From assembly GCF_903645325.1 (NCBI RefSeq), contig NZ_CAHJXQ010000001.1:372001-436000 (forward strand): a stretch of 64,000 bases of DNA. Reading direction: 5' to 3'. Positions 8,631-40,146 of this stretch are shown here, one piece after another. The position numbers were made by a program, and so were the translations under genes. Each line of letters begins with the position of its first letter. Position 1 is the first letter of the stretch. The notes under the pieces were generated by a model. The model ran no database searches, was not told the origin of the DNA, and saw only the letters and a program-made list of their open reading frames with translations. The stretch comes from Microbacterium tenebrionis (lineage in GTDB: Bacteria; Actinomycetota; Actinomycetes; Actinomycetales; Microbacteriaceae).

Positions 8631-8664
8631 GCTCCGGGGCCGTCGACGCTGCCACCGAGCGCCA

Positions 8665-8736
8665 GTTCGCGCGAGACGACTTTCTGTTGAAGTCGGTCAA
8701 CGGCGTGACCTCCTGGCAGGTGCCGCATCTCTTCAT
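8665..8736 (-). pseudogene. N-terminal fragment of a CxxC-containing protein
   Basis: ATG at 8736 begins MKRCGTCQEVTPLTDFNRKS, which resembles the N-terminal zinc-binding block of small phage- or HNH-associated proteins (KRCxxC...L..F..). The expected second CxxC does not follow; similarity is lost after about 24 codons, where the sequence abuts the CGNR remnant. Probably a truncated relic next to the tRNA 3' end. Confidence 0.4.
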
Positions 8737-8772: not shown

Positions 8773-9065
8773 TGGGCCCCATGGGGCTCGAACCCATGAC
8801 CCGCGGATTAACATGCCACTTCGGCTTTCGCCGCCGTCCCCATGGACGTTCGTGGTCTGGACTGTCCCTTCACCCTGGCTTGCGCTTTAGGTGCCACCCG
8901 TCCAGTCTCTACACCTTCCGGACTCGCGTCCGGCTTGGCTCGGGATTGCCATCTGGTCTCCCAGGAAGGGTTCCCCGACTTTGAGTGGTGTCATCCCCGG
9001 AGTTTCCCCCGAGGCGCTCCTATTTATGTTGAAGTCCGATGCTCTGCCAACTGAGCTAGAGGCCC
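8773..9065 (-). tRNA. tRNA-Lys (anticodon UUU) interrupted by a group I intron
   Basis: On the minus strand, exon 1 is 9065-9032 (34 nt) and exon 2 is 8811-8773 (39 nt). Joined, they form a 73-nt class I tRNA. Acceptor GGGCCTC pairs with GGGGCCC (one G-U); D arm GCTC/GAGC; T arm ATGGG/CCCAT with loop TTCGAGC; discriminator A. The spliced anticodon loop is CTTTTAA, giving UUU (Lys). Stem pair 27-43 is U/C, unpaired. The intron splits the anticodon after position 34. The genomic 3' end reads ACCG, so CCA is completed after transcription. The short variable loop excludes tRNA-Leu, the usual host of such introns in cyanobacteria. Confidence 0.93.
8812..9031 (-). ncRNA. group I self-splicing intron (IC3-like) in tRNA-Lys
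   Basis: 220-nt intron with no ORF. Core blocks in order on the minus strand: GGCAATCCCGAGCCAAGCC (8950-8932), AAGGTGTAGAGACTGGACGG (8917-8898, P7 5' region) and AAGGGACAGTCC (8870-8859, P7 3' strand). From memory these match the Anabaena tRNA-Leu group IC3 intron closely. The exon ends in U34, which can pair as U-G with an internal GAG guide (P1). The intron ends in G (position 8812), as the omega-G rule requires. A stem at 9014-8995 is capped by GAAA, and a GGC-GAAA-GCC hairpin lies near the 3' end. Splicing needs only guanosine and Mg2+ in this class. Confidence 0.92.
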
Positions 9066-39913: not shown

Positions 39914-40146
39914 GATGTTTCTCCTTCACCGGCAGGTACGTGCCGGACGATCCGTTGTGATGGAAGCGGTGGAGAGACCCCACCGTGGCCCGTCGTCGGG
40001 CCGGTTTCAGTATGGCACGAAGCGCCCCGTCTGGGTATTTCCCAGCCTGGCTGGATACCATCGAACACGGTCCGGAGCACACACGCAGGCCGTGTGTCCG
40101 ACGGGTGCCGGGGAACCCGTCCCCGCCCAGATCTTCAAGAGGAACG

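Follow-up and report, generated by a model that had tools for sequence, protein, structure and literature searches.

The stretch of DNA considered here, 64,000 nucleotides (nt) of Microbacterium tenebrionis that are called the window as a whole, carries on its minus strand (9065-8773) a gene for a 73-nt lysine transfer RNA, tRNA-Lys(UUU), which is interrupted after U34 and thereby divided into exons of 34 nt and 39 nt (Table 1). An initial annotation made from the letters alone had described the 220-nt insert as a group I intron free of open reading frames. Its coordinates and anatomy proved correct, and no open reading frame of at least 30 amino acids lies wholly within the intron on the intron's own strand. 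Its picture of the locus held for the intron, and it overlooked the relic of an HNH endonuclease gene nearby, the putative cassette to which this relic belongs, and tRNA introns elsewhere in Actinomycetota.

Table 1. Features of the interrupted tRNA-Lys(UUU) gene, its neighbourhood and split-gene loci of relatives (window positions unless a genome is named; G and L numbers are our handles for genomes and loci)
Feature	Position	Strand	Basis
tRNA-Lys(UUU) 5' exon, positions 1-34	9032..9065	minus	94-100% identity to 5' halves of intact Microbacterium tRNA-Lys(ttt) genes
Group I intron, 220 nt, first bases CAAC, last base omega-G	8812..9031	minus	RF00028, exact empty sites, covariation
tRNA-Lys(UUU) 3' exon, positions 35-73	8773..8811	minus	82-100% identity to 3' halves of Microbacterium tRNA-Lys(ttt) genes
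Internal guide sequence GGAG, pairing with exon CUU and intron C1 (P1)	9017..9020	minus	role from established group I biochemistry
P3 5' strand, pairing with 8899-8894	8983..8988	minus	paired in 33/33 class-A introns, invariant
P7, guanosine-binding helix, 8907-8903 with 8864-8860, enclosing P3' and P8	8860..8907	minus	covariation
HNH gene relic directly following the tRNA, which retains N-terminal codons and has lost the catalytic part	8656..8736	minus	tblastn, alignment
Split-gene element locus L071	G002:C1:737000-745000		
Split-gene element locus L219	G094:C1:899700-917000		
msiK cis-regulatory RNA	39914..39972	minus	Rfam scan, 62.6 bits

The covariance-model search that the initial annotation had named as a check gave a mixed answer: Rfam family RF00028 matches positions 9041-8839 over its full length (model 1-253, E 1.6e-7), and the score of 36 bits lies under the Rfam gathering cut-off of 50 bits. 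The locus is overlooked both by a default Rfam scan and by ARAGORN without introns; in 15 of the 48 Microbacterium genomes with an intron match this curated cut-off is exceeded. The insert is real and exact, because the exons directly abut (query bases 1-34 next to 255-293) in 24 of 34 same-genus genomes. Copies of the intron with 91-94% identity were found in three other same-genus genomes by a DNA search of the window's genome and 57 relatives. At 26 empty-site loci ARAGORN called tRNA-Lys(ttt) in 25, the exception (L029) being the split gene of G002. With introns allowed, the same program names the window's locus tRNA-Asn(gtt) by moving the boundary one base; this name was rejected, because the intron would end in U instead of G and a tRNA-Asn(gtt) exists elsewhere in the genome. 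The model match, the empty sites and the structure and covariation described next support a group I intron in an actinobacterial tRNA-Lys(UUU), as originally claimed, and host, size and short P1 place it probably in subgroup IC3.

The conserved P3-P8 core of group I introns, with P7 and the P3/P7 pseudoknot, is found in the window's intron. Comparison was based on an alignment of 33 distinct class-A introns (the window's type, see below) and on one of 34 introns of all classes; here and in the following, where indicated, the window's intron or repeated genomes are part of the counts of 30, 33, 34 and 38 introns or loci. Of the 2,108 cells of the class-A alignment 97.4% are paired in a P1-P9 structure that includes the pseudoknot, compared with 30-47% for versions with slid partners, over which this structure has the advantage of having been derived from the window's sequence. 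Eleven pairs changed on both sides in class A, a number matched by none of 500 shuffles. The helices P1, P3, P4, P6, P7 and P9 are invariant within this class, which is the reason why P3 shows no covariation. The U before the insert and the terminal G, both pointed out initially, recur in 33/33 and 34/34 aligned introns, and P1 with its U34·G wobble at the 5' splice site is paired in all of them and invariant. In the all-class alignment 91.9% of the cells of 41 pairs are paired; P5 and some outer helices were left out, as was P3 because class B pairs it one column shifted (read by eye). P7 is paired in all 34 rows with three variants, namely GACTG/CAGTC in 15, GACTA/TAGTC in 16 and GGCCA/TGGTC with one G-U in three rows. 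The stems were said to be capped by GAAA, which by eye is true of P2 and P9b only, P5 having GAGA, P6a GCGA and P8 GCAA. Minimum-energy folding of the intron is mildly unusual (z -1.81; 7 of 200 shuffles equally stable). Group I chemistry comprises two transesterifications. Judged by the structure of the intron, an external guanosine would attack after U34, exon 1 would then attack behind the terminal G, and this would join the exons to a 73-nt tRNA that reads AAA.

The genome that contains the window (2.95 Mb, 24 contigs, completeness 100) has 45 RF00005 matches, all of which were read, and 44 ARAGORN tRNA calls. Among them no second tRNA-Lys(UUU) was found, the other lysine tRNAs being CTT only. 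This supports the interrupted gene as the sole AAA decoder of this genome and bears out the initial annotation. In 44 non-overlapping, crudely picked reading frames of the window AAA accounts for 19 and AAG for 378 of 16,383 codons. An intact backup Lys(UUU) is present in two of the 48 intron genomes (G199, and G158 on contig 75), as far as a native tRNA-Lys query can tell, which a strongly recoded Lys(UUU) could escape; other full-length matches read in these 48 genomes are Lys(CTT), Thr or His. The backup of G199 lies in an array of 26 tRNAs (L212, G199:C2:211000-216500), and this genome also carries a class-B intron tRNA. A pseudogene or a non-splicing intron, with AAA read some other way, would fit the sub-threshold Rfam score and the lack of an ARAGORN call unless introns are allowed. 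Such an explanation is hardly credible given that exon ends and catalytic helices are conserved in the 33 class-A introns, the window's included, that no substitute Lys(UUU) was found and that AAA codons are used.

In the genus Microbacterium RF00028 matches occur in 48 of 366 genomes, and the number of intron genomes is at least 49, since strict filters made the genus scan miss (at least) G203, which was added later. All 30 same-genus loci that were read show tRNA-Lys(UUU), the break after U34 and the terminal G. A pattern scan of named genomes yielded 53 stretches, 52 of them with a full exon-intron-exon reading, mainly from Microbacterium and Agromyces and additionally from Nesterenkonia, Demequina, Phytoactinopolyspora, Svornostia and Solirubrobacteraceae. 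Since the exon end was part of the pattern, only tRNAs of this kind could be found. At L145 (Demequina oxidasica) the 5' exon and the intron start are present, with no TTAATC 3' exon within 420 nt. An order-level scan of 297 genomes found two intron genomes, both Microbacterium including the window's, and leaves the frequency outside this genus poorly estimated. Carriage of the intron tRNA by phages or plasmids was rejected: no phage match was found and plasmids gave one partial match of 40 nt.

Class A comprises native GGGCC-type tRNA-Lys genes with introns of 214-220 nt. Its flanks are orthologous to those of intronless loci in a distance-aware comparison; the upstream flank of L148, for example, is 95.7% identical to L032, beginning 1-2 nt from the tRNA. 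In class B a foreign GCCCC-type tRNA-Lys bears an intron of 245-269 nt, and a third host type with a GGGTC-type tRNA is found in Solirubrobacterales. The locus has four alleles, i.e. the native gene, the intron in the native tRNA, the intron in the foreign tRNA and a recoded tRNA without intron (class D). In a phylum sample (L248-L260) some distant Actinomycetota have group I introns in their tRNAs, among them tRNA-Asn(GUU)-like ones, and others have them in 23S rRNA. At three of these loci (L253, L254, L258) the tRNA insert measures about 545 nt and contains a stop-to-stop frame of 114-134 codons with an HNH family match at 31-37% identity. A contig titled as a metagenome-assembled genome of Bifidobacterium breve (L166) has an intron tRNA that closely resembles the Solirubrobacterales copies and is probably mis-binned.

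Two HNH-like open reading frames, from G028 and Agromyces terreus, served as tblastn queries for the neighbourhood of these genes. In class A the HNH match begins 11-270 bp downstream of the intron tRNA-Lys on the same strand; in class B it lies mostly 60-225 bp upstream in divergent orientation, and in the recoded class it is likewise mostly upstream and divergent. Within equal flanks of 1.5 kb HNH accompanies 21 of 30 intron loci, or 20 of 29 once the locus that supplied the query is set aside, versus 0 of 25 intact intronless loci, with a Fisher p of 4.7e-8 over related genomes that are not independent; two of the 21 are short remnants, at L083 and at L103, the locus of the window. No HNH at E 1e-4 was found beside the 25 intact intronless tRNA-Lys loci, three of which are from other families of the order and one of which (L028) is flanked on one side only, nor at L029. 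An endonuclease beside the intron-bearing gene and absent beside the empty allele is the arrangement of collaborative homing, which part of the members of this family display.

HNH matches at E<=1e-12 were detected in 57 of the 366 Microbacterium genomes and below 1e-20 in 43 (at most eight candidates were scored per genome, and the 1e-20 cut was set after viewing the list). All 43 homologues below this cut adjoin tRNA-Lys(UUU), 33 of them an intron-bearing gene and 10 a recoded intronless one; 32 were placed by comparing RF00028 and HNH coordinates and 11 by reading the loci (10 recoded, one with an intron missed by the filters). The other 14 genomes have weaker matches; one of them, G013, represents a decayed form of class D, and those read among the rest are HNH proteins away from this locus. 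A self-splicing intron could also be immobile and vertically inherited, next to an unrelated HNH gene prone to land beside tRNA genes, which are known hot spots for insertions. It speaks for this possibility that no endonuclease is encoded inside the intron and that no strong homologue of HNH was found in 16 of the 49 genomes with an intron. We regard it nevertheless as unlikely, because the intron is patchily present (48 of 366 genomes) with exact empty sites, because in the 43 genomes every HNH match below 1e-20 is located at tRNA-Lys(UUU), and because HNH is found on different sides depending on the class, which argues against one inherited linkage.

The neighbouring protein, a candidate homing endonuclease, can be assigned by sequence to an HNH endonuclease family on account of its HNH domain and of matches to PHROG 2255 HNH endonuclease (E 4.9e-36 and 1.8e-32). 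In a 24-row alignment D-F-D-H and N are invariant and the second H is nearly so. The gene is under purifying selection, with a median ratio of non-synonymous to synonymous substitution rates (dN/dS) of 0.12 (0.05-0.61) for 97 of 103 pairs at an identity of at least 72%, calculated for intact copies with the broken ones left out. A 38-row HNH tree requires 7 changes of label for the three classes, the minimum being 2, and has class D in both halves; good support is given to 11 of its 35 inner branches. Outside relatives occur in 141 phage records and in 7 enterobacterial plasmids, all below 60% identity, and at 32-35% in 4 viral contigs. In three phage records (MT889395, NC_013650, NC_023696; mycobacteriophage) HNH relatives with an identity of 37% lie next to annotated tRNA-Trp genes or overlap them, and the tRNA-linked habit possibly exists in phages too.

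At the window's locus there is no intact endonuclease, only the relic (tblastn E 1.2e-6, match 8757-8656), from which a net of about 350 nt is missing when compared with the open HNH homologue of G058. In the alignment with L097 the positions jump from 107 to 493 there and from 104 to 141 here, with short scattered blocks between, and then continue colinearly. Because its HNH gene is a relic, the window would represent a late stage with the intron kept and the endonuclease lost.

Class D is represented by 10 genomes in which a recoded, intronless tRNA-Lys(UUU) beside HNH stands in place of the native gene. ARAGORN calls six of these ten tRNAs. The recoded tRNA-Lys(UUU) of L280, L281, L284, L286, L287 and L291 has an unusual T-loop, and five of these six are identical. 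A native tRNA-Lys query revealed no further Lys(UUU) in class-D genomes: in 12 genomes (the 10 recoded ones, G013 and G203) the full-length matches that were read are Lys(CTT), Thr or Arg. A single match of 57 nt falls in a tRNA-Met gene. Native flanks surround the class-D locus on at least one side in five of six cases compared and on both sides in three (e.g., L287). Moreover, remnants of the native gene were left behind twice. In Agromyces terreus (L149) an exact copy of 27 nt of the native 3' end lies about 40 bp past the class-B tRNA, and in G129 the recoded tRNA is followed by a 34-nt native 3' remnant with 85% identity.

In G002 and G094 the native tRNA-Lys(UUU) is split by about 22 kb and 35 kb, respectively. 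The inserted element carries two Phage_integrase tyrosine recombinases, a DUF6262 gene and an adjacent class-B intron tRNA-Lys. We take it to be Tn554-like; two tyrosine recombinases with a small third gene are seen in these two genomes only and not in the window. From such cases it could be argued that the intron tRNA is the cargo of a recombinase element which inserts in the anticodon stem, the intron of the replacement tRNA hiding the attachment site. This is very improbable, as a close homologue (at least 56%) of the 722-amino-acid recombinase exists in 2 of 366 genomes only, the next being 34% identical, and as class A introns, to which the window's belongs, interrupt the native gene itself, at loci that are orthologous. 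An integrative-element origin of all introns was rejected as a general explanation, the recombinase being close in only two genomes.

We suggest that the locus is an allele of a homing cassette, with a probability of roughly 0.77. A free-standing HNH endonuclease would cut the uninterrupted native tRNA-Lys gene near the anticodon, and repair would copy in the cassette consisting of the endonuclease and a protected tRNA. The cassette's own tRNA would be spared either by the intron that splits the target or by recoding of the sequence. In the window the endonuclease would have decayed and the intron would persist because, as we propose, the cell needs the tRNA. The observations behind this suggestion are the structure of the intron, the empty sites, the single tRNA-Lys(UUU) gene, the adjoining HNH gene with its purifying selection, the replacement of the native gene in its place and the two remnants of it; for cutting, homing and protection the endonuclease F-CphI, discussed below, offers a precedent.

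Several observations weigh against the homing cassette. All counts were made over related genomes and are not independent. The RF00028 score of the window's intron is sub-threshold, and in the all-class alignment further pair types, one of five covariation measures, do not rise above shuffles (405 of 500). Of the intron genomes, the 16 of 49 without an HNH homologue below 1e-20 include the window's, and the introns of Nesterenkonia, Phytoactinopolyspora and Solirubrobacterales have no HNH at 1e-4 within the stretch examined. A Pfam search of the HNH protein returned no HNH match, a PDB sequence search nothing firm, and the predicted fold (predicted local distance difference test, pLDDT, 87) matches nothing in PDB at E<=0.001; the fold search lists axonemal proteins first, with Cap5 and Hpy99I as the closest nucleases at E 1.3 or worse. 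Four recoded tRNAs of a second type (L291, L303, L304, L306) are not called by ARAGORN and depend on the Rfam tRNA model with 43.5-51.3 bits (G276 lowest). Finally, the remnant threshold was reached in one of 38 class-B loci, some genomes being counted twice.

A more far-reaching proposal, to which we give somewhat less than an even chance, is a natural cleave-and-rescue element: HNH would destroy the essential tRNA-Lys(UUU) gene and ride with a cleavage-proof copy, intron-bearing or recoded, the gene having been repeatedly replaced across Microbacterium and Agromyces. The in-place replacement and the two native-gene remnants bear on this likeness. If it were true, the biological role of the intron would be the immunity of an essential gene. 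Cleave-and-rescue gene drives are synthetic systems of insects that direct a nuclease against an essential gene and supply a resistant copy; here the likeness to these engineered drives concerns the gene arrangement only. Bacterial tRNA introns gain a new host gene and a new phylum, and the reading of AAA in this cell appears to require RNA splicing. Such introns may persist in essential tRNA genes as the protective half of an endonuclease-driven cassette, and the four natural alleles make the cassette idea testable with one enzyme and few DNA substrates.

Group I introns of bacterial tRNAs are known from tRNA-Ile(CAU) of Azoarcus and tRNA-Arg(CCU) of Agrobacterium. The intron described here resembles them in its small size, the lack of an endonuclease reading frame, the anticodon-loop position, the U before and the G at its end and the P1-P9 core. 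It differs in residing in tRNA-Lys(UUU) of Actinomycetota between positions 34 and 35 and in its link to a neighbouring HNH gene. An endonuclease encoded in a cyanobacterial tRNA-fMet intron was reportedly described by Bonocora and Shub in 2001; that one lies inside the intron, in contrast with the HNH gene outside it here. No report of an actinobacterial tRNA group I intron or of a cassette of endonuclease and protected tRNA-Lys was found among the matches listed from the titles and abstract starts of the open-access literature (subscription journals and preprints lie outside this range). The initial annotation's claim of an undescribed case agrees with this, as it does with the table of bacterial tRNA introns in a 2014 review, which in the portion available names cyanobacteria and alpha- and beta-proteobacteria only and no Actinomycetota (PMC4033280).

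Cyanobacterial tRNA-Lys inserts of 22-49 nt in the anticodon loop are called group I introns in the excerpt available of one paper (PMC5733544); unlike the present intron, we judge them far too short for a group I core. SegB of phage T4 is, as the available part of its source has it, likewise a free-standing homing endonuclease of a tRNA region (PMC2988022). It belongs to the GIY-YIG family, occurs in a phage and has a tRNA intergenic region listed as target, whereas here an HNH-type protein of a bacterial chromosome is concerned. The closest parallel is F-CphI of cyanophage S-PM2, which in the passages available of its description takes part in collaborative homing: this free-standing endonuclease is associated with a target gene that bears an intron, by which self-cleavage is prevented (PMC6083498). 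That target is the phage gene psbA, in contrast with the essential tRNA gene on a bacterial chromosome, the HNH-type protein and the recoded intronless alternative found here. Bacterial tRNA introns and intron-protected free-standing endonucleases such as F-CphI are thus known separately, and their combination at an essential bacterial tRNA gene appears to be new.
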